From: Acidobacteriota bacterium
Lineage (GTDB): Bacteria; Acidobacteriota; Terriglobia; Terriglobales; Acidobacteriaceae
NCBI GenBank assembly: GCA_028872955.1
Contig: JAGWNX010000028.1
Location: forward strand, 1 to 39,426
DNA: 39,426 nt
Direction: 5' to 3'
Both the position numbers and the translations under genes were made by a program. Below the pieces are notes generated by a model. That model did not search any database. It was not told the origin of the DNA and was given only the letters and a program-made list of their open reading frames with translations. Numbering within the stretch: the first letter of the stretch is position 1; the number at the start of each line of letters is the position of its first letter. Below, piece by piece: positions 673-17,202 of this stretch.

Positions 673-1650
673 CTATGGGCTCAGGAACTGCGTGGTGTAC
701 AGGCTGGCCGGGTCGATCTGTGTATGGGTGACCTTCAGGTCACTGAGCTGCTTGACCATGGCCTGCCAGCGGTCGGCCTGCAACTGGCCCAGGTGGCTGG
801 TGCCGGCCGTGGCGCCGTCGACAAAGTGGCCGTCGCGCAGTGCCTGGTAGCTGTACTGCATCAGCGCGGGGTCCAGCGCCGGGTTCAGCTTTTGAATCAT
901 GGCATGTGCGGGGCCGGAGTCCTGCAGGTAGTCCTGCCAGCCGCGCAGGGAGGCCTGGACGAACTTGCGTACCACCTCAGGATGCTGTTGCGCGTAGGTT
1001 GTGGAGGTGAAGAAGACGCGGTAGGGGTCGTAGCCGGTGTCGCTGATGAGCAGGGTGCGGAAGGGCACGCCGGCCTTCTGGACGTAGAAGGGCTCTGAGG
1101 TAATGAAGATCTGCTGGATGTAGTCGGGGTCTGCCAGGAAGTTTGCGACGCTCAGCGTTGCGGGCTTCTCCTTGACGGTGGTGAGTCCGTAGCGGCCAAC
1201 GATGTACTGGAACCAGGTAGCGCCGGGCATGATGGCGACGGAGTGGCCCGCGAGATCTGGAAAGCTGTGCACGTCGGAGGCGGCGTGGACCATGACGGCC
1301 TGCGGGTCATGCTGCATGGTGGCACCTACGGCGAGCAGCGGTTGACCATTGTCGACGGCCTGGACGATGCGATCGGAGGAGCTCATGCCGAACTCGGCTG
1401 CGCCCACGGAGACCTGCTTCTCTGGCGTGACATACGGGCCGCCGGGCAGAATCTGCACGTCGAGCCCGGCCTGGCGGTAGTAGCCCCGGGTCAGCGCAGT
1501 GTAAAAGCCGCCGTGCTCTGGCTGCGGATACCAGTCGGTCTGCAGCCGCACTACGATGAGCCCGCTGTCACTCTTCTTCCTGCAGCCGGCCAGGGTAAAC
1601 GACAGAGCTGCCACGACGCACCAGGTGAGGACCCGAAGAGTTGTACGCAT
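673..1650 (-). CDS. ABC transporter substrate-binding lipoprotein, NMT1/SsuA-like
   Basis: A 325-residue periplasmic binding protein. The N-terminus is a lipoprotein signal: a basic start, a hydrophobic stretch and the lipobox LAGC with the lipidated Cys at residue 23. The mature part begins VRLQTDWYPQPEHGGFYTAL and continues with YYRQAGLDVQI. This is the hallmark of the NMT1/THI5-like family, which binds thiamine-pyrimidine precursors, riboflavin, sulfonates, nitrate and similar small compounds. It lies 67 bp downstream of the amidase on the same strand. The matching ATPase and permease are encoded at 7512-9103 on the other strand, so one importer is split between two transcription units. 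No Shine-Dalgarno is seen before ATG 1650, but TAGCCT lies 6 nt upstream, so it may have its own leaderless promoter. The ligand is unknown; the neighbours suggest a nitrogen heterocycle, ureide or amide. Confidence 0.88.
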   Translation of the reverse strand: MRTTLRVLTWCVVAALSFTLAGCRKKSDSGLIVVRLQTDWYPQPEHGGFYTALTRGYYRQAGLDVQILPGGPYVTPEKQVSVGAAEFGMSSSDRIVQAVDNGQPLLAVGATMQHDPQAVMVHAASDVHSFPDLAGHSVAIMPGATWFQYIVGRYGLTTVKEKPATLSVANFLADPDYIQQIFITSEPFYVQKAGVPFRTLLISDTGYDPYRVFFTSTTYAQQHPEVVRKFVQASLRGWQDYLQDSGPAHAMIQKLNPALDPALMQYSYQALRDGHFVDGATAGTSHLGQLQADRWQAMVKQLSDLKVTHTQIDPASLYTTQFLSP

Positions 1651-1662
1651 GGCAGCAGGCTA
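1651..1662 (-). promoter_or_regulatory. Possible leaderless -10 element before the substrate-binding protein gene
   Basis: TAGCCT (1662-1657, minus strand) fits TANNNT and is followed by 6 nt and then ATG 1650. No Shine-Dalgarno is visible. I found no convincing -35 box at 16-18 bp. The same arrangement occurs before several genes nearby, which is the main reason to list it. Confidence 0.3.
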
Positions 1663-1717
1663 GCACCGCGAGCGGCTGCAGAAGCAGCTATAACGATTGT
1701 TTATCGAGCAGCGCAGT

Positions 1718-2983
1718 CTACGGTAATGCTTCCAGCTGCGCGGCAAAGGCCAGTAGTTCGGAGTCGCGGCCGCGCGGTGCTACCAGTTGCAGGCCTGCAC
1801 CGTTGGACTGCGGAACCGTGACCGCAGGCATGCCGGCCAGGCTGATGGGCGTGGTGTAGCGCAGGATGCGTTGGCGCGTCTGGCTATGATCTGCGCCTGC
1901 GGGCAGTTGGTGCAGGGGTGCACAGGGCAGTGCGAGAAAGTCGTAGCCTGTGAGCAGAGCATCCATCTGGCTGCGGAAGGCAGCGTGGCGCAGCCGCAGC
2001 GCGGCAACCGTGTCGGCACGGAGCGACTCGCCCCAGGCGAGGCGGTCTGCAATGGCAGGCTCAAAGACAGTGAAGTCCGCACGGCTGGCCAGGTGCTGCC
2101 GTTGCAGCGCTGCAGCCTCATGCGCTTGAATGGCGGCGAAGATCTCCAACGCGTCGTGCCAGAACGTTGGCGCGATGGGTTGCAGTGTGGCTCCGGCGCG
2201 CAGCAGCTGCTCGCGGGCAGCGGCATGGCCGGTGCGCACGACGGAGTCGGCGTCTTGCAGCAGGGCGCCGTCGACGAAGGCGATGTGCGGGGTGCGACTC
2301 CACCGCTCTGGCGGACGAATGCCGAGCAGGGCTGCGGCCAGGGCAGGGCCGTCGCGCAGATCGCGAAAGAGCAGGCCCAGAGTGTCAAAGGTGGGAGCGA
2401 GATGTCCGGCGCCAAGCCAGGAGCCCACGCCAACCGTGCTGCGGTAGCCTGCCAGGCCGCACAGCGCGGCGGGCACACGTATGGAGCCGCCGGTATCGGT
2501 GCCGATGGCGACGAGCGCGCTGCCCTGTTGCACGCTGGCTGCGGCGCCGCTGGAGGAGCCACCGGTGAGCCGCGTGGGGTCCTCGGGCTGCAGGCAGTCG
2601 CCAAAGTCGCGGCTCTCGCCGGTGATGCCGTAGGCGAGCTGGTGCAGGTGCGTCTTGCCCATCAGGGTGGCACCGCTCCGTCGGATCTGCTGCATCATCC
2701 AGGAGTCGCTGGTTGCGGGGGTGTCGTGCTCCAGGTAGAAGCGCGCGCCGCAGCTGGTGGGGAGTCCCGCAACGTCGAAGCAATCCTTGAGGGAGATGGG
2801 GATGCCGAACAGCGGTGCTGCGGTGTGGCTGCTTACCTGCGGCTGGACGAGCGTGAGGTACGCGTTGCGCGAGGCGTTGTCGTTTCGTCGTGCGGCTGCC
2901 TCACTGGCTACGCGAAGCGCCGTGGCGGGGTCTGCCTTGAGTAGGCCGGAGAGGAGCTGGAGAGGGGACGCCGGCTTTTGCAT
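1718..2983 (-). CDS. Amidase-signature hydrolase, AtzE/HpxY-like
   Basis: A 421-residue enzyme of the amidase signature (AS) family, which hydrolyses C-N amide bonds with a Ser-cisSer-Lys triad. The triad is intact: Lys66 in GIPISLKDCFD, the cis-Ser in GGSSSG (about 143-145) and nucleophile Ser167 in GTDTGGSIRVPAAL. The length matches a single AS domain, so the C-terminal extension of allophanate hydrolase (AtzF) is absent. The overall pattern, including RQRILRYTTPISLAGMP near the end, resembles the AtzE/HpxY group (1-carboxybiuret or oxalurate-type amidohydrolases). An AtzH/HpxZ-like protein is encoded at 9967-10353, supporting that reading. The small AtzG/HpxX partner is not seen in the window. 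It is the first gene of a leftward unit with the binding protein and is divergent from the deaminase operon. Probably cytoplasmic, as no signal peptide is seen. AS family is sure; the substrate is inferred. Confidence 0.9.
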   Translation of the reverse strand: MQKPASPLQLLSGLLKADPATALRVASEAAARRNDNASRNAYLTLVQPQVSSHTAAPLFGIPISLKDCFDVAGLPTSCGARFYLEHDTPATSDSWMMQQIRRSGATLMGKTHLHQLAYGITGESRDFGDCLQPEDPTRLTGGSSSGAAASVQQGSALVAIGTDTGGSIRVPAALCGLAGYRSTVGVGSWLGAGHLAPTFDTLGLLFRDLRDGPALAAALLGIRPPERWSRTPHIAFVDGALLQDADSVVRTGHAAAREQLLRAGATLQPIAPTFWHDALEIFAAIQAHEAAALQRQHLASRADFTVFEPAIADRLAWGESLRADTVAALRLRHAAFRSQMDALLTGYDFLALPCAPLHQLPAGADHSQTRQRILRYTTPISLAGMPAVTVPQSNGAGLQLVAPRGRDSELLAFAAQLEALP

Positions 2984-2995
2984 GCCTGCATTCTA
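2984..2995 (-). promoter_or_regulatory. Possible leaderless -10 element of the amidase gene
   Basis: TAGAAT (2995-2990 on the minus strand; 5 of 6 matches to TATAAT) is followed by 6 nt and then ATG 2983, which would put the transcript start at the A of the start codon. There is no Shine-Dalgarno before this ATG. A weak -35 (TTGATC) lies 19 bp upstream, longer than ideal. Confidence 0.4.
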
Positions 2996-3046
2996 CGTGC
3001 CGGGTGTGTGCGTAGATCAAAACGCCATGGCGGTAGCAAACTTCTC

Positions 3047-3081
3047 TTTAGCGCAGCGGCAGCTCCGTGGTATGTTGCGAC
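3047..3081 (+). promoter_or_regulatory. Possible leaderless promoter of the deaminase operon
   Basis: TATGTT (3071-3076) lies 5 nt before ATG 3082, with a weak -35 (TTTAGC, 3047-3052) 18 bp upstream. The region before the ATG has no Shine-Dalgarno. Together with the element on the opposite strand at 2984-2995 this gives a 98-bp divergent regulatory region (2984-3081). Confidence 0.35.
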
Positions 3082-3642
3082 ATGGGATACAACTCAGCGC
3101 GTGGCCGCGATCAAGCGGCCCAGGATGCCATTTGGATGGCAGAGGTGGTGCGCTTCACAGCGAAGTCGCTGAAGACTGAGCGCCCCGTTCCGTTTGGTGC
3201 CATCGTTGTTCACACCCGAACCGGAGACGTGCTGCAGCGCGGCCTGAATGCTGTGGCTCGAGAGAGCGATCCCAGCTCGCATGCGGAGGTGAGAACCGTC
3301 CGACTGGCGTGCCGCAAGCTCAAATCTCCTTCGCTCAAGGGCTACACGCTGTACTCCACCTGCGAGCCCTGCCCCATGTGCATGGCGAACCTGCTGTGGG
3401 CGGGCATCGATCGCGTCGTGTACGGGGCGACGATTGCTGACGCCGCCAAACACTGCCGACAGATCTACATCCCCGCCGCAGAGGTAGCTGAACGCAGCGA
3501 CATGACCTGTGAGGTGGTGGGGCCGGTGGAGCGCGACCTGGCGTATCAGACCCTGTTTACCCATCCCAGGATGTTGGCGGCCTTTCGCCAGTGGACGTCG
3601 CGGCGAACAGGCAAGCGCAGCAGCAAGGCAGGTGTCGCATGA
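3082..3642 (+). CDS. Cytidine/deoxycytidylate-type zinc deaminase (nucleoside or nucleobase deaminase)
   Basis: A 186-residue member of the CMP/dCMP deaminase fold. The zinc site and catalytic Glu are present: His67-Ala-Glu69 in SSHAEV, and the second motif PCPMC with Cys97 and Cys100. Spacing and the CEPCPMCMANLLWAGI context match the guanine deaminase/cytosine deaminase/tRNA-type branch, which removes an exocyclic amino group from a base-like ring and releases ammonia. ATG 3082 was chosen over an upstream GTG at 3067 because the protein starts close to the domain and a TATGTT box sits 5 nt before it. First gene of the rightward operon; its stop overlaps the next start (ATGA at 3639-3642), so translation is probably coupled. 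The C-terminal basic tail (after about 170) is not conserved-looking. In this setting it probably deaminates the imported compound or an intermediate; the exact substrate cannot be read from the sequence. Confidence 0.88.
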   Translation: MGYNSARGRDQAAQDAIWMAEVVRFTAKSLKTERPVPFGAIVVHTRTGDVLQRGLNAVARESDPSSHAEVRTVRLACRKLKSPSLKGYTLYSTCEPCPMCMANLLWAGIDRVVYGATIADAAKHCRQIYIPAAEVAERSDMTCEVVGPVERDLAYQTLFTHPRMLAAFRQWTSRRTGKRSSKAGVA

Positions 3643-5012
3643 CCGAGAGGGCAACGTTGCTGGCAGAGAAGCTGACTGCGGTGCTGGGGGATTCAGGGCG
3701 CGTGCTTACGAGCCCTGCGACAGTGGCCAGGCTCTCGCGGGACTTTTACTGGTACTCGCCGGTGTTGAAGCGCGAGCTGGAGACCAAGGTTGGTGATGTG
3801 GTGGTGCAACCTGTCTCTGTGGAAGAGGTGCGGGCGACGCTGCAGCTGTGCTACCAGCTGCAGGTGCCGGTGACCGTGCGCGGTGCGGGTACGGGCAACT
3901 ACGGACAAGCGATTCCCCTGGCTGGTGGAGTGGTGCTGGACCTGGCGTTGATGGACAGGATTGAGGCCATCACCCCGGAGGGCGTGGCGGTGTGCCAGCC
4001 GGGTGTGCGGCTGGGCGCGCTGGAGAATGAGGCACGCACCCAGGGCTGGGAGTTGCGCTGCTATCCATCGACGGTTGCCAAGGCATCGGTGGGCGGCTTT
4101 CTGGGTGGCGGCTCGGGTGGCATTGGCTCAGTGGCGCACGGCGGACTGCGTGACTTCAACACAGTGCGCGCGCTGGAGGTGGTGACGATGGAGCCGGAGC
4201 CGCGCGTGGTGCGGCATGAGGGCGAGGCTGTTCACGAGATTCTGCACGCATGGGGCAGCAACGGCATTATCACCCGCATCTGGCTGGCGCTGGTGCCAGC
4301 GGTGGAGTGGGCGCAATGCGTGGTGGCGTTCCCGAGCTTCGCAGCCGCCTTCGACTTCAGCGAGTCCATCGCTACCGACGAGCACTGGCAGAAGCGACTG
4401 GTGACGACGTTTGAGGCGCCGATCGCCTCGTACTTCCAGCCGATTCGCACCTACGTGGCTGCGAACGAGTCGAATATCTTTTTTCTGATCGCTCACGCTC
4501 AGCTGGATGCGCTACGAAGTGCGGCAGAGGCTGTTGGCGGCCACGTGGTGTATGGCGCAGCGTACGCCGGGCTGCGGGCCACGCCGCTGCTCTCCGACTA
4601 CACGTGGAATCACACCACGCTCTGGGCCATCAAGCACGATGCCAGCTGGACCTATCTGCAGTGCGGCTTTGACCCGGCGACCGTGCGTGAGCAGTTTGCC
4701 CGCCTGAAGGCGCGCTATGGCGAGGACTTTCTGCTCCACATCGAGTTTATGAAGAGTGGCAGCGGCGTGGTGATTCCGGGGGCGATTCCGCTGGTGCGGT
4801 TTACGACGGAGGAGCGGCTGAACGAGATGATTGACTTCTGCCGGTCGATTGGCGTGAGCGTGGCTAATCCGCACGTGAACAATGTGGAGGGCGGCGGGCG
4901 GTATCGGCAGGATCATGTGCAGTTCCTGGCCAAGCGGAGGTATGACCCGCGCAATCTGCTGAACCCGGGCAAGATGATCAGCTATCAGCCGGAGGAGGGA
5001 AGCGTGGCATGA
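3639..5012 (+). CDS. FAD-linked oxidase (VAO/PCMH flavoprotein family)
   Basis: A 457-residue protein with an N-terminal PCMH-type FAD-binding domain. The pyrophosphate-binding loop is visible as RGAGTGNYGQAIPLAGG (81-97), followed by the second glycine-rich segment VGGFLGGGSGGIGSVAHGGLRD (about 151-172). The C-terminus carries YDPRNLLNPGKM, the usual end of the FAD-oxidase C-terminal cap in glycolate oxidase subunit D/D-lactate dehydrogenase relatives. Such enzymes oxidise an alcohol, amine or hydroxy acid, reducing FAD. The start ATG 3639 overlaps the deaminase stop by 4 nt, and its own stop overlaps the creatininase start by 4 nt, so the three are translationally coupled. No signal peptide is seen, so it is probably cytoplasmic. 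Its substrate is unknown; the neighbours suggest a nitrogen heterocycle or a hydroxylated breakdown product. Confidence 0.88.
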   Translation: MTERATLLAEKLTAVLGDSGRVLTSPATVARLSRDFYWYSPVLKRELETKVGDVVVQPVSVEEVRATLQLCYQLQVPVTVRGAGTGNYGQAIPLAGGVVLDLALMDRIEAITPEGVAVCQPGVRLGALENEARTQGWELRCYPSTVAKASVGGFLGGGSGGIGSVAHGGLRDFNTVRALEVVTMEPEPRVVRHEGEAVHEILHAWGSNGIITRIWLALVPAVEWAQCVVAFPSFAAAFDFSESIATDEHWQKRLVTTFEAPIASYFQPIRTYVAANESNIFFLIAHAQLDALRSAAEAVGGHVVYGAAYAGLRATPLLSDYTWNHTTLWAIKHDASWTYLQCGFDPATVREQFARLKARYGEDFLLHIEFMKSGSGVVIPGAIPLVRFTTEERLNEMIDFCRSIGVSVANPHVNNVEGGGRYRQDHVQFLAKRRYDPRNLLNPGKMISYQPEEGSVA

Positions 5013-5803
5013 AGACCTGGATCCCTGATGCACGACAGTTTGCGTACCTGACCTGGAAGCAGGTGGAGGCGCTACCGAAGGACGAGACGCTGCTGGTGCT
5101 GCCGACGGCAGCGATTGAACAGCACGGCCATCATCTGCCGCTGGCGACGGACACGCTGCTGAACAACCTGGTGCTGGGCCACGCCTTCGCGCACCTGGCG
5201 CCGGAGTTGCCGATCTATGCCCTGCCACCGGTCTGTTATGGCAAGAGCAACGAGCATATCGGTTTTCCGGGCACGCTCTCGGTCTCTGCAGCCACGATGA
5301 TGGCCGTGCTACGTGATCTTGGCGCGAGCCTTGCAGCGTCTGGCTTCAAAAAGGTGGTGCTGTTCAACTCTCACGGCGGCAACACCTCCGTTGTGGATGT
5401 GATGTGTCGTGATCTGCGGGCAGAGTTTGGCCTGCGCACGTTCTATCTGTCGGGCATGGGTGGCGCCAAGCTGACGGGGTTGCATGCGCAGGAGCGCGCC
5501 TACGGGTTTCACGCGGGAGAGGTGGAGACGGCGCTGCTGCTGCACGGCACGCCCGAGCTGGTGCACACCGAGCAGTACACCAGCAACTACATTGCGCAGG
5601 TGAACTCGCCCGACGTGCTGCTGCCAGAGAACGGCCCTGCGACGTTTGCGTGGCTGACGCGCGATATTGCACCGAGCGGGGTGATGGGCGACCCACGGCC
5701 GGCCACGGCCGAGAACGGCGCCCTGTGGTTGCAGGCCGCCGCAGAGAAAGTGGCCGCGGCGCTGCTGGCGATGTATTCCTACACGAACAGGTTTCAGCCC
5801 TGA
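5009..5803 (+). CDS. Creatininase-family amidohydrolase
   Basis: A 264-residue, full-length member of the creatininase (creatinine amidohydrolase) family, metal-dependent enzymes that open cyclic amides. Family members also include FAPy deformylase (ArfB) and mycofactocin MftE. The expected metal-binding residues are present: Glu37 and His39 in AIEQHGHHLPLATDT, Asp48 in the same segment, His122 in NSHGGN and Glu171 in HAGEVETA. Coupled at both ends: ATG 5009 overlaps the oxidase stop (ATGA), and its TGA shares a base with the next ATG (TGATG at 5801-5805). Next to a deaminase, an amidase and a formamidase it probably opens a lactam, hydantoin or formamido-pyrimidine-like ring. Whether creatinine itself is the substrate cannot be told. 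The family call is firm. Confidence 0.92.
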   Translation: MKTWIPDARQFAYLTWKQVEALPKDETLLVLPTAAIEQHGHHLPLATDTLLNNLVLGHAFAHLAPELPIYALPPVCYGKSNEHIGFPGTLSVSAATMMAVLRDLGASLAASGFKKVVLFNSHGGNTSVVDVMCRDLRAEFGLRTFYLSGMGGAKLTGLHAQERAYGFHAGEVETALLLHGTPELVHTEQYTSNYIAQVNSPDVLLPENGPATFAWLTRDIAPSGVMGDPRPATAENGALWLQAAAEKVAAALLAMYSYTNRFQP

Positions 5804-7524
5804 TGAAGCGAGCGCGAGTGGAGTGCGGCGATGGCGTGACGGTGGAGCGCGGTGTGGCGTGCCGCATGTCTGACGGCTGCACGCTCTACTCTGACCACTA
5901 CTACCCGCCCCCGCACTTTACCCAGCCGCAGCCAGTCTTGCTGATGCGCCAGCCCTATGGGCGAGATATCGCCTCCACGGTCGTGTATGCGCATCCGGCG
6001 TGGTTTGCCGGCCAGGGCTACAACGTGGTGATCCAGGATGTGCGTGGGCGGGGCGACTCTGAGGGCGACTTCTATCCGTTTCGGCACGAGCAGCAGGATG
6101 GCGCGGAGACGATTGCGTGGCTGCTGACGCGTCCGGAGTGCAACGGCAGCGTGGGCATGTATGGGTTTTCGTATCAAGGAATGACACAATTTCTGGCAGC
6201 GGCTGCGCAGCCGCCGGGGTTGCGATGCATTGCGCCGGCGATGGCTGCGGCAGACCTGTGGGCGGGCTGGTTCTACCATCAGGGAGCGTTGCGGCTGGCA
6301 ACCACGCTTGGCTGGGGCATCCAGATGCTGCGTGCCGATGCGCGACGTCTGCAACTGGATGAGGCACATACTCAGCTGGAGGCCGCGTGGCAGAGCGTCC
6401 GCACGCAGCCGCAGGCCGCGCCCTATGGGGCGATTGCCGCCCTCAGCGATGCTCGCCTGCCCACGTATCTGCATGACTGGATGAGCCACGCGGAGCCGGG
6501 TGAGTACTGGGCGCAGCTCGACATCAGCACGCAGCTGGATCGCATTCAGGTGCCGGCACTGCACGTGGCGGGCTGGTATGACTTTTATCTGCAAGGCACC
6601 TGGGATGGCTTTCATGCGTTGTGCAAGCAGGCGGCAACCCAGGAGGCCCGCGAGCACCAGTATCTGCTTGCGGGGCCGTGGGTCCACATCCCCTGGGCGC
6701 AACGGGTAGGCGATGCCGACCTGGGCGCAGAGGCTGCCTATGACACGGATCGGCTGCTGCTGCGGTGGTTCAATCACTGGTTGAAGGGGTCTGGAGAGTT
6801 TGTCGGGGAGCCGCGCATACGGCACTTTGCGCTGGGTGCTACTACGGGAGCATCGCGCTGGTGCTGCACCACGCAACTGAAGCCGCAGGGAACGCACACT
6901 CTCTACCTGGCGAGCGACGGCCGCGCCAACTCTGCCAAGGGCGATGGAAGGCTTGAAGAGGCACCGCAGGCGACGGCTGCCGCGGATCACTTTGTCTACG
7001 ATCCGGAGGTGCCGGTGCTGGCCCCGGGTGGCATCCAGGCGCTGAGCGGACCGTTTGATCAGAGTGGAATCGAACAAGGGAACAACGTGCTGGTGTACAC
7101 CACGCCGACGCTGCAGTCGTCGCTTCATGTGTTTGGTGCGCCGCGGGTGACGCTGCATGCGGCCACCTCAGCCCCGGCGGCAGACCTGACCGCAAAGCTG
7201 GTGCGTGTGACGCCGCAGGGCCGTGCGGAGTTTGTGTGCGTTGGCATTGCGCGGTCCTCGCTCCTCTTCCGAGAGGCCGAGTACACCGCAGACCGTGTGC
7301 ATGCGTGGACGTTTGCGTTGGAGCCAACCTCCTGCCGCTTCGCTGCTGGCGACTGCATCCGACTGGAGATTGCTGGGAGCGCCTTTCCGCTCTATGACCG
7401 CAACCCGTCGAGCAATGTGCCGGCGCGCGAGGCCAGCCCCTGGAACTGGGCGCGCTCGACCCACACGGTTCGGCATGATGCACACCATCCCTCAAAGCTA
7501 GAGTTGCCCCTATGCCCGGAGTAG
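5803..7524 (+). CDS. CocE/NonD-type serine hydrolase (peptidase S15 family)
   Basis: A 573-residue alpha/beta-hydrolase of the X-Pro dipeptidyl-peptidase/cocaine esterase family. The catalytic triad is readable: nucleophile Ser123 in GFSYQG, Asp260 in GWYDFYLQG and His295 in GPWVHIPW. The C-terminal third (about 370-570) is the jelly-roll domain typical of CocE, ending in PLYDRNPSS. Family members cleave esters, acyl-amide bonds or proline peptides. No signal peptide is seen, so it probably acts in the cytoplasm on the imported compound. The start at ATG 5803 is fixed by the TGATG overlap with the creatininase; an open frame extends further upstream but lies inside that gene. Its end overlaps the ABC ATPase start by 13 nt. 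Hydrolase family sure; substrate unknown. Confidence 0.88.
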   Translation: MKRARVECGDGVTVERGVACRMSDGCTLYSDHYYPPPHFTQPQPVLLMRQPYGRDIASTVVYAHPAWFAGQGYNVVIQDVRGRGDSEGDFYPFRHEQQDGAETIAWLLTRPECNGSVGMYGFSYQGMTQFLAAAAQPPGLRCIAPAMAAADLWAGWFYHQGALRLATTLGWGIQMLRADARRLQLDEAHTQLEAAWQSVRTQPQAAPYGAIAALSDARLPTYLHDWMSHAEPGEYWAQLDISTQLDRIQVPALHVAGWYDFYLQGTWDGFHALCKQAATQEAREHQYLLAGPWVHIPWAQRVGDADLGAEAAYDTDRLLLRWFNHWLKGSGEFVGEPRIRHFALGATTGASRWCCTTQLKPQGTHTLYLASDGRANSAKGDGRLEEAPQATAAADHFVYDPEVPVLAPGGIQALSGPFDQSGIEQGNNVLVYTTPTLQSSLHVFGAPRVTLHAATSAPAADLTAKLVRVTPQGRAEFVCVGIARSSLLFREAEYTADRVHAWTFALEPTSCRFAAGDCIRLEIAGSAFPLYDRNPSSNVPAREASPWNWARSTHTVRHDAHHPSKLELPLCPE

Positions 7525-8318
7525 AGACACCCATCGCCGCACCTCCGTCGCGCCCCTACATCTGCTTTGACGGTGTAGCGAAGCGATACGCACAGCGTGG
7601 CGGAAGCGCGCCTGCCAGCATTCTGGAAGGCATTGACCTGACGGTGCAGGAGGGCGAGTTTGTCAGTCTCATTGGGCCGTCCGGCTGTGGCAAATCCACG
7701 ATGCTGAAGCTGGTGGCGGGGCTCACGCCAGTCTCGGCCGGCAGCATTCGAATCGAGGGTCTGACGCCGGAGAACGCGCGCGAGATCGTCTCGTTCATCT
7801 TTCAGGATCCGACGCTGTTGCCCTGGCGGACTGTAGAGCAGAATGTTGCGCTACGGCTGGAGCTGGAGGGTGTTACCCGCATTCGCCGTCAGGAGAAGGT
7901 GGCGTCGCTGCTGGAGTTGGTGGGGCTGTCGCATGCAGCAGGCTCCTACCCGCGCCAGCTCTCTGGCGGCATGAAGATGCGCGTCTCCATTGCGCGTGCG
8001 CTCTCCACACGGCCGCGTGTGCTGCTGATGGATGAGCCGTTTGCGGCGCTGGATGAGATCTCTCGCGATCGACTGAACGAAGAGATGCTCCGCCTGCAGG
8101 CCGAGCAGGGCTGGACGGCGATGTTTGTAACGCACTCGGTGGCAGAAGCGGTGTTTCTGTCGCATCGGGTGCTGGTGCTCTCGGCGCATCCTGGCAGAAT
8201 CGCCCACGAGGTGGCTGTGCCGCTGCCGTATCCCAGAACGGCAGAGACGCGCCTGACACCGGAGTTTGAGCAGGTGGTGGCACATGTAAGCCGCCTGCTG
8301 CGCGGAGTACACCGATGA
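7512..8318 (+). CDS. ABC transporter ATP-binding protein, SsuB/TauB/ThiZ-like
   Basis: A 268-residue ATPase subunit with Walker A GPSGCGKST (55-63), Q-loop FQDPTLLPWRT, signature LSGGM and Walker B VLLMDEPFAALD followed by the H-loop FVTHSVAEAV. The FQDPTLLPWRTV..NV pattern and the C-terminal LSAHPGRI are typical of importers for nitrate, sulfonates, taurine and thiamine-pyrimidine precursors, which agrees with the NMT1-like binding protein at 673-1650. It overlaps the upstream hydrolase gene by 13 nt and the permease gene by 4 nt (ATGA), so the transporter is co-expressed with the degradative enzymes. It works at the cytoplasmic face of the inner membrane. Confidence 0.94.
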   Translation: MPGVETPIAAPPSRPYICFDGVAKRYAQRGGSAPASILEGIDLTVQEGEFVSLIGPSGCGKSTMLKLVAGLTPVSAGSIRIEGLTPENAREIVSFIFQDPTLLPWRTVEQNVALRLELEGVTRIRRQEKVASLLELVGLSHAAGSYPRQLSGGMKMRVSIARALSTRPRVLLMDEPFAALDEISRDRLNEEMLRLQAEQGWTAMFVTHSVAEAVFLSHRVLVLSAHPGRIAHEVAVPLPYPRTAETRLTPEFEQVVAHVSRLLRGVHR

Positions 8319-9103
8319 AGAGACGCCTGCGGAGTGTCGCGAATGCCGCGGCGGTGCTGGCGGCGCTGCTGCTGCTCTGGCAGTTGCTGATCTGGGTCTT
8401 TCACGTGCCACGGTTCATGCTGCCCTCGCCGGTGGCCGTAGCGCGTGCCGTGGTGCTGCGGTTTGGCTCCCTAGCGCAATCCTTTGCCATCACGGCTGCT
8501 GCTGCGGCGGGTGGCCTGTTGGCGAGCATCGCGGCGGGGCTGCTGATTGCACTGCTGTTTGCGCAGTCGCCGTGGCTGCGCCGCATGCTGCTGCCCTACA
8601 CCATTCTGCTGCAGACTGTGCCGATTGTCGCCGTTGCGCCGCTCATCATCATGTGGTCGGGTGCCGGGTTGTTTGCCGTCACGCTCATCACCTTCATCAT
8701 CTGCCTGGCACCCATCATCGCCAACACGACGCAGGGACTCATCAGCGTGGACGAGAATATGGTGAATCTTTTCCTGATGCAGAGTGCAACGCCCTCGCAG
8801 ATTCTGTGGAAGTTGCGCCTGCCGCATGCGCTGCCGTCGTTCTTCACCGGCGTGCGCATCGCCAGCGGTGTCTCGGTGATTGGGGCGATCACGGGTGAGT
8901 TGTTTGCGGGCTCCAGCGCGGTGGGTCAGGGCGGCCTTGGGTACTCGATTACCTATGCGCTGGCACAACTGCAGACCGACTATCTGTTCGCGTTGGTCTT
9001 TGCGGCTACCATCCTGGGCTTCCTGTTCTACTTCATCGTGGTGTTTCTGGAGTATCACTTTCTGCATGAGTGGCACGATTCCGTGCGTGTCACCGAACCC
9101 TAG
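8315..9103 (+). CDS. ABC transporter permease, SsuC/TauC-like
   Basis: A 262-residue inner-membrane permease with about six hydrophobic segments. It starts with a basic N-terminus followed by a Leu/Ala-rich first segment. The cytoplasmic EAA-like loop is recognisable in the stretch with SATPSQILWKLRLPHALPSFFTG (split here: SATPSQILWKLRLP, then HALPSFFTG), which contacts the ATPase. The sequence type is that of BPD_transp_1 permeases of the SsuC/TauC/ThiX group. ATG 8315 overlaps the ATPase stop by 4 nt. It presumably pairs as a homodimer with the ATPase and the lipoprotein receptor from the divergent unit, as no second permease is encoded nearby. Confidence 0.92.
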   Translation: MKRRLRSVANAAAVLAALLLLWQLLIWVFHVPRFMLPSPVAVARAVVLRFGSLAQSFAITAAAAAGGLLASIAAGLLIALLFAQSPWLRRMLLPYTILLQTVPIVAVAPLIIMWSGAGLFAVTLITFIICLAPIIANTTQGLISVDENMVNLFLMQSATPSQILWKLRLPHALPSFFTGVRIASGVSVIGAITGELFAGSSAVGQGGLGYSITYALAQLQTDYLFALVFAATILGFLFYFIVVFLEYHFLHEWHDSVRVTEP

Positions 9104-9141
9104 CCCGGCTCTGCCGGAGCAGGCAATACAGGAGAAGCATC

Positions 9142-9963
9142 ATGTTGCGACTGGAGACCGAGACGGGCTGGTGGCTGGTGACGCACCCGGACCACGCGCG
9201 GCTGGCCGGGGCCTTTGCCCGGCAGTGGGGTAATACACAGTTCTGTCGTCCGGAGCCGCGGGAGCACGTGCTGCGCGGCATCGCAAGCCATGATGACGGC
9301 TGGGCCTTGCGCGATGCGACCCCGCAGATCACGCGCCAGGGACTGCCGTCGGCGTTCTCTGTCGAACTGGTTGGGAAGTACTCCGCGTTTGAAGAGATCG
9401 ATCTGCTGGATTACCTGAACGTGCGCGAGCGCGCGGTGGAGGTGGTGGCGCAACAGGACCCGTACGCTGGCCTGCTGGTCTCGCTGCATACCTACAACCT
9501 GCTTACGGAGCGCGCCGACCGAGCCACCATTCAGCCGGATCAGTTGCCTCTTCTGGATGCGTTCCTGGAGCGTCAGCGTGACGTGCAGCAACAGCTGCGC
9601 GCGGCCATCCAGGCGCTGCCCGGGCTGACGGCTGAGGATGTGGATGCGGAGCGCGTGCAGCAACACTTTCGCCTGCTGCAGGCTACGGACAACCTTTCGC
9701 TGCTGGCCTGCGTGGACGACGGGCGGCCGGGCTCTCTGCTGCATCCACTGCCCTGCAACGACGGCACCCAGGTTCCGGTCGCTGTTCAGCGAGTCGCACC
9801 GCGTTGCTTCCGCCTGGCTCCGTACCCGTTTGCCGCGCCGTTGCTGGAGTTTGCTCTGCCAGCACGGCACGTTGCGCAGAAGAGGTTTGCGAGTGCCGCA
9901 GAGCTGCAGGCGATGTTTGCGGCCGCGCCGATGGAGCAGGTGACCATTACTGTGAGGGCGTAA
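9142..9963 (+). CDS. DUF3891 family protein of unknown function
   Basis: A 273-residue protein recognised as DUF3891 from WLVTHPDHARLAGAFARQWG and HDDGWALRD near the N-terminus. Several conserved-looking His/Asp residues (THPDH about 13-17, the ASHDDGW motif about 48-54, SLHTYNLL) suggest a metal-dependent hydrolase of the HD type, but this is only an inference from residue pattern. ATG 9142 is preferred to a GTG at 9070, because GGAGAAG lies 4 nt upstream of it and the GTG would sit inside the permease gene. It is the last gene of the rightward operon, 38 bp after the permease, and ends only 3 bp from the convergent DUF3225 gene. Its linkage to a transporter and amidohydrolases is a useful clue to this uncharacterised family. 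Confidence 0.85.
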   Translation: MLRLETETGWWLVTHPDHARLAGAFARQWGNTQFCRPEPREHVLRGIASHDDGWALRDATPQITRQGLPSAFSVELVGKYSAFEEIDLLDYLNVRERAVEVVAQQDPYAGLLVSLHTYNLLTERADRATIQPDQLPLLDAFLERQRDVQQQLRAAIQALPGLTAEDVDAERVQQHFRLLQATDNLSLLACVDDGRPGSLLHPLPCNDGTQVPVAVQRVAPRCFRLAPYPFAAPLLEFALPARHVAQKRFASAAELQAMFAAAPMEQVTITVRA

Positions 9964-9966
9964 CGG

Positions 9967-10353
9967 CTAGCTGCTCGGCAGGAGCGAGACGTGGGCCGCG
10001 ACGATGCGCCAGCCCTCAGGCAGCCGCACCCAGGTCTGGCTCTGGCGGCCGCGAATCAGACGGCCGTTGGCCTCGCGTTCAAACTCCAGGGTGATGCTGC
10101 CGAAGTCCGTGCCAAAGGCCACGATGTCCTGACGCACGACGCGGCGTGCCAGCCCCACGGAAGGGCGAGCCTTGCGAAACGCCTCCAGCTCATCCATGCC
10201 ATAGAGGTTCTCCGTTGCCCCAAAGCGCATGACGTGGGGCGAGGCCCAGAACATTGCCATCAGAGTCTCTACGTCGTTGGTGACCAGCGCCTGCTCATAG
10301 CGGGGATAAAGGGCAGCGAGTTCTGCAACCGTGGCCGGATCGTTGATCTGCAT
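9967..10353 (-). CDS. DUF3225, AtzH/HpxZ-like NTF2-fold protein
   Basis: A 128-residue protein of the SnoaL/NTF2-like fold, closely resembling AtzH and HpxZ. Readable features are the N-terminal YEQALVTNDVETLMAMFW helix pair, then FGATENLYG, ARPSVGLARR and the C-terminal SQTWVRLPEGWRIVAAHVS, which are diagnostic for DUF3225. In cyanuric acid and oxalurate catabolism these proteins are encoded with the AtzE/HpxY amidases. The frame is open further upstream, but ATG 10353 has AGGAGA at a good distance and starts at the family's usual N-terminus. It follows the formamidase by 17 bp in a leftward unit, so RidA, formamidase and this gene are probably co-transcribed. It may act with the amidase at 1718-2983. 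No AtzG-like partner gene is visible. Confidence 0.87.
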   Translation of the reverse strand: MQINDPATVAELAALYPRYEQALVTNDVETLMAMFWASPHVMRFGATENLYGMDELEAFRKARPSVGLARRVVRQDIVAFGTDFGSITLEFEREANGRLIRGRQSQTWVRLPEGWRIVAAHVSLLPSS

Positions 10354-10370
10354 GGTATCTCCTGCATGGG

Positions 10371-11306
10371 TTAGAAGAGTTTGCGTGGGGGCAGGATGCG
10401 CTTGGCCAGCGAGGCGGAGACTGTGGTGAGCGGGCGATTGACCACCTGGCTCAGCTTCAGGTCCATGGCCACGCTGCACAGCAGATACGCGTGCACCGGG
10501 TCCATACCCCAGTGCTGGCAGAGCAGGTCGATCATGCGCGAGGTTGCAGCGCGCGCCGCAGCCAGCGCATCCTCGGCGGACTCAATCACCTGCCACACGC
10601 CGCCCTCGGTACTGGCGGGCTGTCGTGGCGTCTCCAGCATAGGCCCGGCCAGCGGCTGTTGCCGGTGCAGCGTAAAGCGCAGGGTGGCCTGGGCCGGGCA
10701 CTCCATGCCGTTGATGCAGACCTCGCCATCGCCCTGTGCGGCGTGCGCATCGCCGGCAGAGAAGAGCGCGCCGGGCACCTGGACGGGCAGGTAGAGCGTG
10801 GCGCCGGTGGTGAGTTCGCGCACGTCCATATTGCCGCCAAAGTTTCCCGGCGGGCGGGTGCGGAACTCGCCGGTCTCTGCGCGAGAGACGCCCATGACTC
10901 CGCAGAAGGGGCGCAGCGGCACGGCGGCTGGTGCCAGGGAGTAGCTGGTGTCGCCCTCCAGAGTCCAGTGAAAGAGCGCAGGCTCGCGGAAGCGTTCCTC
11001 CAGAAAGCCGAGCCCGGGGATGACGCTGGTCCAGGCCCAGCCCAGGTGCTTCACCTCCAGGATGTCGACCTGCAGCACGTCGCCGGGCTGTGCCCCGTGG
11101 ATTGCGATGGGGCCGGTGAGCGCATGGATCAACTCGCGGTCGATGTGCTGGAACTCTGCGGCGGTCATGCCGGGGCGAACCTGCCCACCGCTGGAGTCCA
11201 GGCAGTGCATCTCGACCGTATCCCCGGACTCGATGACCAGCCGCGGTGGCAGCAGGTTGTTCCAGCGGGAGTGGGTGGGCTGCGCTGCCAGCGTATGGAG
11301 CGCCAT
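10371..11306 (-). CDS. Acetamidase/formamidase family protein (FmdA/AmdA)
   Basis: A 311-residue hydrolase of the FmdA_AmdA family, which releases ammonia from small amides such as formamide or acetamide. Family marks are clear: GDTVEMHCLDSSGGQ near residue 30, the GPIAIHGAQPGDVLQVDIL segment, PPGNFGGNMDVREL and GDAHAAQGDGEV, which hold the metal-binding Asp/His residues of the family. Length is normal for the short bacterial form. It begins 2 nt after the RidA stop (TGA-cg-ATG) and is followed after 17 bp by the AtzH-like gene, so the three form one unit. It could complete the pathway by hydrolysing a small amide produced by ring opening. Family call firm, substrate inferred. Confidence 0.92.
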   Translation of the reverse strand: MALHTLAAQPTHSRWNNLLPPRLVIESGDTVEMHCLDSSGGQVRPGMTAAEFQHIDRELIHALTGPIAIHGAQPGDVLQVDILEVKHLGWAWTSVIPGLGFLEERFREPALFHWTLEGDTSYSLAPAAVPLRPFCGVMGVSRAETGEFRTRPPGNFGGNMDVRELTTGATLYLPVQVPGALFSAGDAHAAQGDGEVCINGMECPAQATLRFTLHRQQPLAGPMLETPRQPASTEGGVWQVIESAEDALAAARAATSRMIDLLCQHWGMDPVHAYLLCSVAMDLKLSQVVNRPLTTVSASLAKRILPPRKLF

Positions 11307-11308
11307 CG

Positions 11309-11773
11309 TCAGTAGCCCTCCCGCAGCAGCACGGTCATCTGGACCTCGACGATTGCATTACGCGGCAGGGCGGAGACACCCACCGCGGCACGGACGTGGC
11401 GGCCAGGCTCGCCGAAGACCTCGATCAGGAGATCGGAGGCGCCGTTGATGACCTTGGGCGTGTCGGCGAATCCGGGCACGGCGTTGACGTAGCCATTCAG
11501 CGAGACGATCGACTCGACGGCATCCAGCGAGCCCACCGCCTGCTGAATGACGGCTAACTGCGTGAGCGCGCAGCGGCGGGCGGCGGCGTAGCCCTCCTCT
11601 GGCGTGCGGTCAGCACCCACCGTGCCCGTCAGCACGCCCTGGTCGTCGGTGGAGATGACCCCCGAGAGAAAGAGGAGCTGCCCCACTCGCTTGGCAGAGA
11701 GGTAGTTGCCGCCGGCTTTGGCGGGTGCCGGCAGTGGCAGGCCACGTGCCGGGGAGTCCATATCTTTTTCCAT
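11309..11773 (-). CDS. RidA-family protein (YjgF/YER057c/UK114), long form
   Basis: About 154 residues in the RidA superfamily, whose members hydrolyse reactive enamine/imine intermediates or act as aminoacrylate-type peracid amidohydrolases. The pattern AGNYL..., QLLFLSGVIS, GTVGADRTPEEGYAAARRC and KVINGASDLLIEVFGEPGRHVRAAVGVSALP is that of the longer RidA subgroup, with the conserved GRHVRAAVG arginine (Rid active site). The start is uncertain: ATGs at 11833, 11800, 11773 and 11761 are in frame. ATG 11773 was chosen because homologues of this subgroup begin roughly there and a TAAAGT box sits 8 nt upstream. First gene of the leftward RidA-formamidase-AtzH unit. RidA beside an oxidase and a deaminase fits a route with imine intermediates. 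Confidence 0.9.
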   Translation of the reverse strand: MEKDMDSPARGLPLPAPAKAGGNYLSAKRVGQLLFLSGVISTDDQGVLTGTVGADRTPEEGYAAARRCALTQLAVIQQAVGSLDAVESIVSLNGYVNAVPGFADTPKVINGASDLLIEVFGEPGRHVRAAVGVSALPRNAIVEVQMTVLLREGY

Positions 11774-11854: not shown

Positions 11855-12751
11855 ATGGGAACAGGCAAAAGGGTGGTGACCGTGGCGGCAGCCACGCTGG
11901 GGCTCGTGTTTGCCTGGCAAATGCGAGATGCGGTGCGAGCGGCTACACCCCTGCCCGCCGTACACAGTACCCGGCAGCGCCCAGACGACCTGGAGCTGGA
12001 CGAAGTGCTGCCAGGTGCGAGTGAACCGGTGCGGAGGTTCGTGGCCTATGCGGATTTGCTGCAACTTCCTCAGGTAGCCGAAACGGTTACAAATGATGAG
12101 AACTTCACGGAGATGAACGTCCGCACGATTCATGTGACGGGCATTCCGCTGAGCGAGCTGCTGCACCTGTTCGGCGGGCCGGGTGCAGACATGGTCTCTG
12201 CGGTTGCCGTGGACGCCTACAGTGCGCCGTACCCTGCGGAGTACATCGCGGCACACCATCCGCTGCTGGTGCTGAAGATTGAGGGTCTGGAGCCAGCGGT
12301 CTGGGCCAAGCAGACGCACAATGAAGATCCCGGCCCGTATCTGGTGACGCAGGCAGACTTTGTGCCGTCGTATCACGTGCTGGCCCACCAGGAGCGCGCG
12401 CAGGTGCCCACGCAGGTGAATGTGCTGGTCTTCGCCGCAGAGAGCGAGGTCTTTGGCCGCATACTGCCGCCACCGCAGTACGGGCCGCAGTCTCCGCAGG
12501 TGCAGGGCTACCTGATCGCGCGTCAAAACTGCATCCGCTGCCATAACGAGGGAGCGACGGGTGGCAGCAAAGCCGGGCATAGCTGGCAGACTCTGGCGCA
12601 CGTCGCCACTCGCGACGCGGCCACGTTTGGCCGCATCATCGTTGCCCCGCGCAGCGTAAACCCACGGGCCCAGATGCCCGCGAATGCGCAGTACGATGCG
12701 CCCACCCTTGCCGCGCTTACGGCATACTTTCAATCGATCGCAACGAAGTGA
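11855..12751 (+). CDS. Exported monohaem cytochrome c with a sulfite-oxidase-like N-terminal region
   Basis: A 298-residue protein. An N-terminal signal-like stretch (about residues 5-30, hydrophobic and ending in a VRAATP region) points to export. The first part (about 45-205) contains VRTIHVTGIPLSELLHLFGG and a VAVDAYSAPYP segment that resembles the molybdopterin-binding fold of sulfite oxidase-type proteins. The usual cofactor-binding Cys is not evident, so it may not bind molybdenum. The C-terminal part holds a single c-type haem motif CIRCH (Cys226, His230) and a later Met in ARAQMPANAQY that could be the distal ligand. It probably carries electrons in the periplasm. It is followed after 6 nt by a DUF2165 membrane protein gene, which may anchor it or pass electrons to it. 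Confidence 0.82.
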   Translation: MGTGKRVVTVAAATLGLVFAWQMRDAVRAATPLPAVHSTRQRPDDLELDEVLPGASEPVRRFVAYADLLQLPQVAETVTNDENFTEMNVRTIHVTGIPLSELLHLFGGPGADMVSAVAVDAYSAPYPAEYIAAHHPLLVLKIEGLEPAVWAKQTHNEDPGPYLVTQADFVPSYHVLAHQERAQVPTQVNVLVFAAESEVFGRILPPPQYGPQSPQVQGYLIARQNCIRCHNEGATGGSKAGHSWQTLAHVATRDAATFGRIIVAPRSVNPRAQMPANAQYDAPTLAALTAYFQSIATK

Positions 12752-12757
12752 GGCGCC

Positions 12758-13261
12758 ATGATCTTTCGTCTGTCCAAGGTGATTCTGCTGGCAGCGATCG
12801 GCTTCTTTTACCTGCTGGTGGTCTTCAACAACACGACGGACTACAACTCCAACTATCAGTTTGTGCACCACGTGCTGATGATGGACTCGACCTTCCCCGG
12901 CAATGCCGGCATGTGGCGGGCGGTCAACAGCACCCTGGTGCACCATGTGTTTTACGACGGCATCATCAGCTGGGAGATGCTGACCGCAGTGCTGTGCGGG
13001 TGGGGCGTGGTGAAGCTGCTGCGCCACCTGGATGCCTCGCCCGCAGCGTTTCATCGGGCAAAGGATGTTGCCGTGGCTGCGCTGACGCTGAGCCTGCTGA
13101 TGTGGCTGGTTGCCTTCCTGTGCGTCGGTGCGGAGTGGTTCCTGATGTGGCAGTCGAAGACCTGGAACGGGCAGGACGCAGCGGCGCGGATGTTTGTCGT
13201 GGTGGGGCTGACGCTGATCTATCTGACCCAGCCGGAGCAGGCGCCACCGGAGCGTCAATAG
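12758..13261 (+). CDS. DUF2165 family small integral membrane protein
   Basis: A 167-residue protein with about four hydrophobic segments: near the N-terminus (about 5-24), around 70-85, 105-130 and 138-155. DUF2165 is recognised from NNTTDYNSNYQFVHHVLMMDSTF (in two parts: NNTTDYNSNYQF, VHHVLMMDSTF) and the WRAVNSTLVHHVFYDGIISWE segment. The family has no assigned function. GAGGCG lies just before ATG 12758, and the gap to the cytochrome stop is 6 nt, so the two are very probably an operon. The several His residues in the first external loop could bind a metal or haem, but that is only a possibility. Confidence 0.85.
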   Translation: MIFRLSKVILLAAIGFFYLLVVFNNTTDYNSNYQFVHHVLMMDSTFPGNAGMWRAVNSTLVHHVFYDGIISWEMLTAVLCGWGVVKLLRHLDASPAAFHRAKDVAVAALTLSLLMWLVAFLCVGAEWFLMWQSKTWNGQDAAARMFVVVGLTLIYLTQPEQAPPERQ

Positions 13262-13346: not shown

Positions 13347-13383
13347 TTGCCGTGCGGCCATGGCATCCGGTAGCATCCTCGCC
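13347..13383 (+). promoter_or_regulatory. Possible leaderless promoter of the TIM-barrel gene
   Basis: TTGCCG (13347-13352), an 18-bp spacer and TAGCAT (13371-13376) stand 7 nt before ATG 13384, so transcription would begin at the start codon. No Shine-Dalgarno is present. Confidence 0.4.
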
Positions 13384-14256
13384 ATGAAAAAATCCTTCTC
13401 TCGCCGAAACTTCCTGCAAAGCTCTGCGCTGCTGGCTACTGCGGCCGCGCTGCCTGCCGGTTCCGCGCTTGCGGAAAGCCACCACACCAGCCATGCCACA
13501 CCGCCGCCCATCAAGCTGGGTATCGCCAGCTACACGTTCCGCAGCTTCAACCGTGCCCAGATGATCGACTACCTGAAAGAGCTGCACGTGACGACGGTGA
13601 ACTGCAAGGATGTGAAGGACCACATGCCGATGACGCCGCCAGAGGCCACTACGGAGGCGCTTGCTGCCTACAACGCCGCGGGCATCCAGGTGACGGCGCT
13701 GGGCACGGTCTACTTTCCCAAGGATGAGGATGACGATATCCGCGCCAAGTTTGAGTACGCCAAGCGCGCCGGGGTCAAAGTGATCGTTACGGGCGACCCG
13801 ACGCCCGCGACGCTGCCGCGGATCGAGAAGTTTGTGAAGGAGTACGACATTCGTATCGCCATCCACAACCACGGGCCAGAGGACAAGATCTGGAAGTCGC
13901 CGCTGGACGTGCTGAAGGCCGTGAAGGGTATGGATCCGAGGCTGGGCTGCTGCATCGACGTAGGCCATACTGAGCGCGCAGGCACGGACGTGGTGGATGC
14001 CATTCATCAGGCCGGTGCACGTTTGTTTGATGTCCACATGAAGGACTTGACCGACTTTACCTCGCGCGAGAGCCAGGTAGCCGTGGGTGAGGGCAAGATG
14101 CCGGTGCCAGCCATCTTCCGTGCGCTGCAGTCCATCGGCTACACCGGATATGTCGATCTGGAGTACGAGATCCACGGCGACGATCCGATGCCCGGCGTGA
14201 AGAACAGCTTTGCCTACATGCGTGGTGTGCTGGCAGGCATGGGGCAGGTCGGCTAG
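13384..14256 (+). CDS. Tat-exported xylose isomerase-like TIM-barrel protein (sugar phosphate isomerase/epimerase family)
   Basis: A 290-residue protein with a twin-arginine leader (SRRNFLQSSALLATAAALP, about 5-23), so it is probably moved folded to the periplasm. The rest is an AP_endonuc_2/xylose isomerase-like barrel. Metal-site residues typical of the family are visible in AIHNHGPED, CIDVGH, VHMKD and VDLEYEIHG. The start is ATG 13384; the reading frame is open far upstream (to 12748), but that part is out of frame inside the DUF2165 gene and is not coding. Members act as sugar isomerases, epimerases or lyases. The exported form is common in Acidobacteria and Bacteroidetes; no substrate can be assigned. 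It is separated by a strong hairpin from the convergent deacetylase gene. Confidence 0.88.
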   Translation: MKKSFSRRNFLQSSALLATAAALPAGSALAESHHTSHATPPPIKLGIASYTFRSFNRAQMIDYLKELHVTTVNCKDVKDHMPMTPPEATTEALAAYNAAGIQVTALGTVYFPKDEDDDIRAKFEYAKRAGVKVIVTGDPTPATLPRIEKFVKEYDIRIAIHNHGPEDKIWKSPLDVLKAVKGMDPRLGCCIDVGHTERAGTDVVDAIHQAGARLFDVHMKDLTDFTSRESQVAVGEGKMPVPAIFRALQSIGYTGYVDLEYEIHGDDPMPGVKNSFAYMRGVLAGMGQVG

Positions 14257-14292
14257 ACAGGCAGCAGGCTAAGCCAGACGTAGAGAAGACGG

Positions 14293-14337
14293 CGGCGGTG
14301 GTGAGGTGCCCTGAGCAGGGCAGCCTTGCCACCGCCG
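14293..14337. terminator. Bidirectional hairpin terminator between convergent genes
   Basis: CGGCGGTGG (14293-14301) pairs with CCACCGCCG (14329-14337), and an inner stem TGCCCT (14307-14312) pairs with AGGGCA (14317-14322). It lies between the barrel gene stop (14256) and the deacetylase gene stop (14346). There is no strong T-run, but position and stem length support a terminator for both. Confidence 0.6.
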
Positions 14338-14345
14338 TGTTGCGT

Positions 14346-17180: not shown

Positions 17181-17202
17181 CGTCACTCCTGGTGTATGAA
17201 TC

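Follow-up and report, generated by a model that had tools for sequence, protein, structure and literature searches.

A conserved gene cluster of Acidobacteriaceae that may import and break down a nitrogen heterocycle

Gene content of the locus

The DNA considered here, called the window, is a stretch of 39,426 nucleotides on contig JAGWNX010000028.1 of an acidobacterial genome of 3.48 Mb in 207 contigs, and its nearest named relatives are found among the Acidobacteriaceae, for example Granulicella, Edaphobacter and Silvibacterium. At positions 673–11773 it carries a cluster of twelve adjacent genes in which a first-pass annotation had seen a possible pathway for the import and breakdown of a nitrogenous small molecule; in a profile search of 19 window proteins all twelve were recovered at these coordinates, each over the Pfam curated cut-off. 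Two further genes (11855–13261), beyond the end originally given, travel with the cluster. The features, in order, are as follows, FAD standing for flavin adenine dinucleotide and CDA for cytidine deaminase.

673–1650, minus strand: NMT1/ThiY-type periplasmic binding protein (Pfam NMT1, 129.8 bits)
1718–2983, minus: amidase-signature amidase, not AtzE by cut-off (Pfam Amidase, 205 bits)
3082–3642, plus: zinc deaminase of the CDA fold (dCMP_cyt_deam_1, 76.6 bits)
3639–5012, plus: FAD-dependent dehydrogenase (FAD_binding_4, 102 bits)
5009–5803, plus: creatininase-family amidohydrolase, proposed ring opener (Pfam PF02633 Creatininase, 234.9 bits)
5803–7524, plus: CocE/NonD serine hydrolase (Peptidase_S15/PepX_C; NCBIfam TIGR00976 CocE_NonD, 392.6 bits, cut-off 66.3)
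7512–8318, plus: importer ATPase (ABC_tran, 116 bits; Walker A)
8315–9103, plus: importer permease (BPD_transp_1, 92.8 bits)
9142–9963, plus: DUF3891 protein, possibly an HD-type metal-dependent hydrolase (DUF3891, 157 bits)
9967–10353, minus: HpxZ/AtzH-like protein, accessory module (NCBIfam HpxZ NF033625, 162.2 bits, cut-off 135)
10371–11306, minus: FmdA/AmdA amidase, accessory module (FmdA_AmdA, 181.8 bits; nearest solved relative 2ii1)
11309–11773, minus: RidA-type protein, possible enamine/imine deaminase, accessory module (YjgF_endoribonc, 84.2 bits)
11855–12751, plus: cytochrome c-type protein whose C-terminal part carries the motif CIRCH and which may serve as electron acceptor (Cytochrome_CBB3, 24.5 bits against a cut-off of 27)
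12758–13261, plus: DUF2165 small membrane protein (DUF2165, 208 bits)

The six genes from the deaminase (starting at 3082) to the permease (ending at 9103) overlap head to tail by 1–13 bases, and this run is therefore arranged like an operon; the DUF3891 gene starts 38 bases after the permease gene. Upstream, the genes of the binding protein and the amidase diverge from the run, and downstream those of HpxZ, FmdA and RidA converge on it. The motifs looked for in five of the enzymes (deaminase, creatininase, CocE, amidase and ATPase) were all found, and these five proteins look intact.

Conservation of the cluster and its smaller core

A first comparison covered 150 genomes, that of the window among them; 14, all of the window's genus, have the FAD gene and 30 have DUF3891. 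Around strong DUF3891 matches in 14 other genomes (13 of the same genus and one of another genus of the family; L031–L044) lies the same block, in both orientations, with the binding protein and the amidase on either side. Two of these stretches (L032, L033) break off at contig ends, in another (L041) no amidase was seen, and that of Granulicella rosea (L044, which recurs as L060) is without CocE, ATPase and permease beside the block. The cytochrome c gene is present in 11 of the 14, two of the remaining three ending before its place, and the DUF2165 gene in 13. After the cluster, at 13354–17225, the window encodes a TAT-signal TIM-barrel isomerase-like protein and then a PIG-L deacetylase-like protein of 959 amino acids; among the 14 related stretches, L042 alone shows the first of these genes.

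A wider scan, with an alignment of the FAD enzyme against 84,980 species genomes, confirmed at least 581 relatives, of which the best 80 were kept, so that the resulting loci favour near relatives; by title they are mostly Acidobacteriota and Verrucomicrobiota, the organism names being those of the submitters. Some of them are the same genomes as the 14 stretches above, and motif counts across sequences include such duplicates. Loci with enough flanking sequence are called testable, and since many stop at contig ends, counts of presence are lower bounds. The deaminase precedes the FAD gene by at most 1.2 kb in all 78 testable loci, the creatininase follows it by at most 1.3 kb in 75 of 75 and a binding protein lies at most 9.9 kb upstream in 51 of 51; CocE (67/68), the ATPase (59/60) and the permease (54/55) follow almost without exception. 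Silvibacterium bohemicum S15 (L053) and Bryocella elongata DSM 22489 (L079) are among the acidobacterial strains that carry this core in full.

The remaining genes are less constant. DUF3891 follows the permease in 44 of 54 testable loci, all ten without it being of a verrucomicrobial type that comprises 25 loci and is set by FAD score (L094, with a verrucomicrobial title, falls into the other group), and the amidase precedes the FAD gene by no more than 3.5 kb in 43 of 67 and was seen anywhere in 52 of the 80. At least 29, 30 and 22 of the 80 loci carry HpxZ, FmdA and RidA respectively, HpxZ and FmdA being seen in none of the 25 verrucomicrobial-type loci; these three genes are an accessory block and not part of the core. 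Among other neighbours, a large outer-membrane-receptor family (C2) and a TonB-receptor family (C3) occur in 21 loci each, C2 in loci of the acidobacterial type and C3 in those of the verrucomicrobial type; these families, like C5 and C16, were each named from one representative. As for the titles, locus L054 is called Rhodanobacteraceae, yet its length (55,227 bases) and gene positions equal those of a contig from G006, a genome of the window's acidobacterial genus, and three metagenome-assembled genomes called Akkermansia muciniphila (L102, L108, L109) may be mislabelled.

A chance neighbourhood is thus rejected by the conservation of the cluster in the related stretches and in the 80 loci picked by their FAD gene. 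Conservation in other genomes had been set beforehand as the test that could refute a shared pathway, and the pathway was not refuted by it, the core of the cluster being kept across the 80 loci. The twelve genes, on the other hand, do not form the single unit that had been supposed, in view of the accessory block and of the loci without DUF3891 or the amidase; what stands of the first-pass annotation is a common import and breakdown pathway built on a conserved core.

A smaller form of that core, made up of importer, FAD enzyme and creatininase, recurs on plasmids of Alpha-, Beta- and Gammaproteobacteria. The FAD homologue was found in 141 plasmid records, and 15 regions were opened, 14 of them annotated and ten compared by tblastn. 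A creatininase lies near the FAD gene in 14 of the 15 (the exception being Haematobacter), as does a deaminase, here an amidohydrolase (14 of 15, the exception being Agrobacterium F2, and that of Klebsiella being found by tblastn). Identities to the window are 33–43% for the FAD enzyme and 35–38% for the creatininase. In Rhizobium johnstonii 3841 the homologue of the window's binding protein is encoded at L127:10884–11900. An NMT1-type importer like that of the window is present in nine of the ten regions compared (not in Ruegeria), and the other five have an annotated set of binding protein, ATPase and permease. In the ten regions compared (E 1e-5, matches over 45 bits) no CocE, amidase, CDA deaminase, DUF3891, HpxZ, FmdA, RidA or DUF2165 of the window type was found. 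Of the 14 regions with annotation, 12 list a RidA, and a DUF2165 is annotated near the FAD gene of Ruegeria, which has no tblastn match to the window DUF2165; both calls rest on annotation, because the window proteins gave no tblastn match.

Protein families and known systems

Three kinds of deaminase, drawn from two folds, accompany these clusters. That of the window, labelled a CMP/dCMP-type deaminase in the first-pass annotation, carries the zinc motifs HAE and CEPCPMC (PCxxC) and has as its nearest solved relative the guanine deaminase 1wkq (E 3.9e-18); the alignment to 1wkq ends before the region of the substrate-contacting, substrate-specific aspartate of guanine deaminase. The second kind, in the Rhizobium cluster (L127:13641–14954), is an amidohydrolase of PRK07583 (699.5 bits against a cut-off of 403), a "cytosine deaminase" equivalog which, embedded in such a cluster, may be misnamed. 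The third is an additional relative of 8-oxoguanine deaminase, found in 14 of the 25 verrucomicrobial-type loci and in one acidobacterial-type locus (L059), and placed between two binding-protein genes in the mapped loci. Its example in L109 (3843–5225) reaches 506 bits, under the cut-off of 532 for the NCBIfam 8-oxoguanine deaminase NF006055, and has as best Protein Data Bank (PDB) relatives the amidohydrolase 3hpa and the 8-oxoguanine deaminase 7ww2. A 34% identical relative of this protein is encoded in a Klebsiella plasmid record of 1.04 Mb (L139:1913–3331), where it adjoins both a second NMT1-type binding-protein gene and the core cluster. The 2-amino-4-oxo-pyrimidine ring of guanine, 8-oxoguanine and pterins is a known substrate in each of these deaminase families; both folds also include cytosine deaminases, whose target is a 4-amino group.

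The source label "pterin deaminase" is borne by one of the 120 homologues listed for the Rhizobium protein (P0331, UniRef) and by one of the 120 Variovorax-like homologues listed (P0160, NCBI). The proteobacterial clusters resemble bacterial pterin and folate deamination (Arad3529; Variovorax sp. F1) in carrying amidohydrolase deaminases, but nearly all other named homologues listed are labelled cytosine deaminase, cytosine/creatinine deaminase or amidohydrolase. Deamination of both folate and pteroate is reported for an Arad3529-type amidohydrolase, and in Variovorax paradoxus an endoribonuclease gene lies downstream of the gene of such an enzyme (PMC9513972). The published pterin deaminase of Variovorax sp. 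F1, with its start read from the primer in that paper, is absent from the 120 Variovorax-like homologues listed, and a link of the cluster to it is therefore unproven.

The FAD enzyme is closely related to PDB entries 6v42 and 6v43, an FAD/FMN-containing dehydrogenase (FMN, flavin mononucleotide; E 1e-110 for 6v42). In a database of 5.8 billion proteins at least 7991 of the 8000 candidates scored were matched, which is a superfamily-level result, and the few organism names among its 120 best matches are acidobacterial. The cytochrome c-type protein has CxxCH in all 20 sequences scored, and the possible redox partners in Proteobacteria vary by lineage, including flavodoxin-like reductases, 2Fe-2S proteins, a PDR-type reductase, and TauD or 2OG-Fe(II) oxygenases. 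The creatininase-family protein carries the metal-ligand motifs EQHGHHLPLATD, HGGN and HAGEVET and belongs to the superfamily by Pfam PF02633; it falls under all three curated cut-offs that it touches, with 130.5 bits against 172 for MftE, 104.4 against 235 for creatininase (TIGR04448) and 53.9 against 245 for IolN.

For the binding protein (673–1650) the best solved relatives are 4nmy (E 1.9e-16), whose ligand is not named, and then 3ix1 (E 2e-10), a binder of formyl-aminomethyl-pyrimidine. Import of aliphatic sulfonates is rejected, since the protein scores 19.1 bits against the SsuA cut-off of 163.5 (TIGR01728), and with it falls the "SsuABC-type" label. The label "AtzE-like" for the amidase is likewise withdrawn: the protein has the GGSSSG and TDTGGS motifs and scores 168.6 bits against 425.75 (TIGR02715) and 179.3 against 461 (NF006631). 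The CocE protein has the GFSYQG motif, and the HpxZ protein passes its own NCBIfam cut-off. In DUF3891, H50, D51, H116 and D183 are invariant and D17-H18 nearly so across 20 sequences, some partial, a pattern that resembles the signature of HD hydrolases; an HD-type activity is possible on the strength of this motif. Its structure is predicted with a pLDDT (predicted local distance difference test) of 92.8, and searches with this model yielded nothing in Foldseek at E<=0.001 and nothing convincing in VIA. The family is also found outside the cluster, on haloarchaeal plasmids, in Peribacillus and in other genomes of the class (L129, L130, L131, L045, L046, the last two being further stretches with DUF3891 and without the cluster), so that it may act independently of this pathway.

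Membership of the hpx, atz, creatinine and rut systems was rejected, curated cut-offs not being reached or genes being missing. (i) hpxWXYZ is the oxalurate/ureide cluster of Klebsiella; the window shares with it an HpxZ homologue over cut-off and an amidase-signature amidase, but adds importer, deaminase, FAD enzyme, creatininase and CocE, and HpxW had no match among the 19 window proteins scanned, HpxX-sized open frames lying outside that scan. (ii) In the Rut pyrimidine pathway RutA is a luciferase-like monooxygenase and RutC a RidA-type protein; likenesses are the RutC-like RidA of the window, a YcdC/RutR-type TetR regulator (PF08362) in Salipiger and a flavodoxin-like reductase in Rhizobium, whereas ring opening is here assigned tentatively to the creatininase-family enzyme and no RutA-type monooxygenase was matched among the 19 proteins. 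(iii) Creatinine degradation has in common the creatininase family and its metal motif, but the window protein stays far below the cut-off for creatininase (EC 3.5.2.10), and neither creatinase nor sarcosine oxidase was matched among the same proteins. (iv) With the atz/trz route to cyanurate the window shares an amidase fold and the AtzH-like protein, but its amidase falls short of AtzE and the 19 proteins held no match to an AtzD-type protein. As the annotation had proposed, no description of exactly this gene set was found by multi-term searches of the open-licence PubMed Central literature, in which likewise no mention of DUF3891 was found and terms for pteridine breakdown gave off-topic papers; searches of this kind do not show absence from print.

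Substrate, proposed route and alternatives

On balance, and by a reading of sequence and gene context, we favour the view that the cluster is a nitrogen-scavenging operon which takes up a nitrogen heterocycle and degrades it by opening its ring, the compound bearing a 2-amino-4-oxo-pyrimidine unit similar to that of guanine or pterins. That it serves a single import and breakdown pathway is strongly supported, because the core is conserved and a smaller core recurs in Proteobacteria. For the class of substrate our confidence is moderate, and comes from the three kinds of deaminase, from two folds, which fit that ring, from the pyrimidine bound by the relative 3ix1, and from the company of purine genes. 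Each of the 14 genomes of the genus that bear the cluster has OHCU decarboxylase, a gene of the urate pathway, which occurs in 43 of the 62 genomes of the genus overall (29 of the 48 others; Fisher p=0.003). In two mapped acidobacterial loci (L050, L126) molybdenum (Mo)-hydroxylase genes together with a ureide or UraD gene border the cluster, convergent to it. In L126 one frame (1181–2620), an apparent XdhB–UraD fusion, matches both XdhB, the FAD subunit of xanthine dehydrogenase, below cut-off, and the OHCU decarboxylase UraD, above it; in L050 a ureidoglycine aminohydrolase was identified, each of the two loci holds a member of the other's family, and L051 shares some of these purine-block families. 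Four further loci have Mo-hydroxylase families of this kind in the neighbourhood of the cluster, the one representative scanned (L073) being PaoC-like and below cut-off (489.8 bits against 1180), and paoABC genes border the Rhizobium cluster. As a clue to the substrate these neighbours are suggestive only.

The order of the steps, from deamination through oxidation to ring opening, and the roles of the partners, we infer as follows. The pyrimidine-type NMT1/ThiY-like ATP-binding cassette importer would take up a heterocycle with a cyclic guanidine unit, from which the deaminase would strip the exocyclic amino group as ammonia, leaving a cyclic ureide. Oxidation of the ring by the FAD dehydrogenase would come next, probably at a carbon that adjoins a nitrogen, and the electrons would go to a partner that would differ by lineage: cytochrome c/DUF2165 here, and in Proteobacteria flavodoxin-like, 2Fe-2S or PDR-type proteins. 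Where RidA is present, it could hydrolyse the resulting imine or enamine. The creatininase-family enzyme would then open the ring at its cyclic amide, and the ureido-acid and amide fragments could be converted to ammonia, carbon dioxide and a small acid by CocE, FmdA, the amidase together with HpxZ, and possibly DUF3891.

Several observations weigh against this proposal. Agrobacterium F2 has importer, FAD enzyme and creatininase with no deaminase, Haematobacter lacks the creatininase and Ruegeria the NMT1-type importer, and the ten plasmid regions compared are without most of the other enzymes, so that the full route is not universal. Creatininase-family enzymes are able to cleave other bonds, as IolN does. 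The association with the urate gene is uncorrected for phylogeny, the urate genes of the window genome lie on another contig, and one relative has what looks like a complete urate pathway apart from the cluster, with allantoinase, decarboxylase, HIU hydrolase, urate oxidase, allantoate amidohydrolase and ureidoglycine aminohydrolase; moreover, the purine blocks beside the cluster are few, convergent and outside the operon.

It is possible, though doubtful, that the cluster is more precisely a complete pathway of pteridine catabolism, in which pterins would be deaminated to lumazines, oxidised by the FAD enzyme, opened by the creatininase and degraded to ammonia, with a drain also to the purine route in bacteria that have a Mo hydroxylase and the urate pathway. 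A tetraoxypteridine isomerase reportedly dates from the 1960s.

It is unlikely that no cyclic guanidine is involved, and that the FAD enzyme and the creatininase-family hydrolase open some oxidised ring, much as IolN opens a dehydro-inosose, with the deaminase acting on a by-product. Agrobacterium F2 and the position of the creatininase-family protein below its three curated cut-offs would agree with this, but the presence of a deaminase next to the FAD gene in every one of the 78 testable loci and in 14 of 15 plasmid regions argues otherwise. Quite unlikely is a salvage of guanine or 8-oxoguanine to urate, in which the FAD and creatininase pair would handle a side product such as hydantoin: the relationship of the window deaminase to guanine deaminase and of the verrucomicrobial one to 3hpa and 7ww2 favours it, as does the co-occurring urate-pathway gene, but neither the FAD enzyme nor the creatininase is required before urate, the pathway from urate is complete elsewhere in a relative, and the alignment to 1wkq stops short of the region of the substrate-contacting aspartate. 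We regard as improbable a catabolism of the thiamin pyrimidine 4-amino-5-hydroxymethyl-2-methylpyrimidine (HMP), in which the deaminase would remove the 4-amino group, the FAD enzyme oxidise the hydroxymethyl, the creatininase open the ring and FmdA finally free ammonia from an acetamide holding the 2-methyl carbon. In its favour, 3ix1, which binds the thiamin pyrimidine, and THI5/THI13 are the solved relatives of the binding protein that carry names, both deaminase folds include cytosine deaminases, and FmdA stands in the accessory module. Against it, the extra deaminase of Verrucomicrobiota and of the Klebsiella plasmid is of the 8-oxoguanine type, for a 2-amino-4-oxo ring, and the 14 plasmid regions with annotation list no gene of thiamin biosynthesis.

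Returning to the nitrogen-scavenging operon that we favour, the pathway, if true, would give functions to DUF3891, DUF2165, HpxZ and many proteins now called cytosine deaminase. Should the substrate prove to be a pteridine, genes would be given to bacterial pterin breakdown past deamination, the point where the gene-level work considered here stops (PMC9513972). In either case, a near-invariant operon shared by soil acidobacteria, by verrucomicrobia and by rhizobial plasmids would amount to a widespread and unrecognised route of organic-nitrogen turnover.

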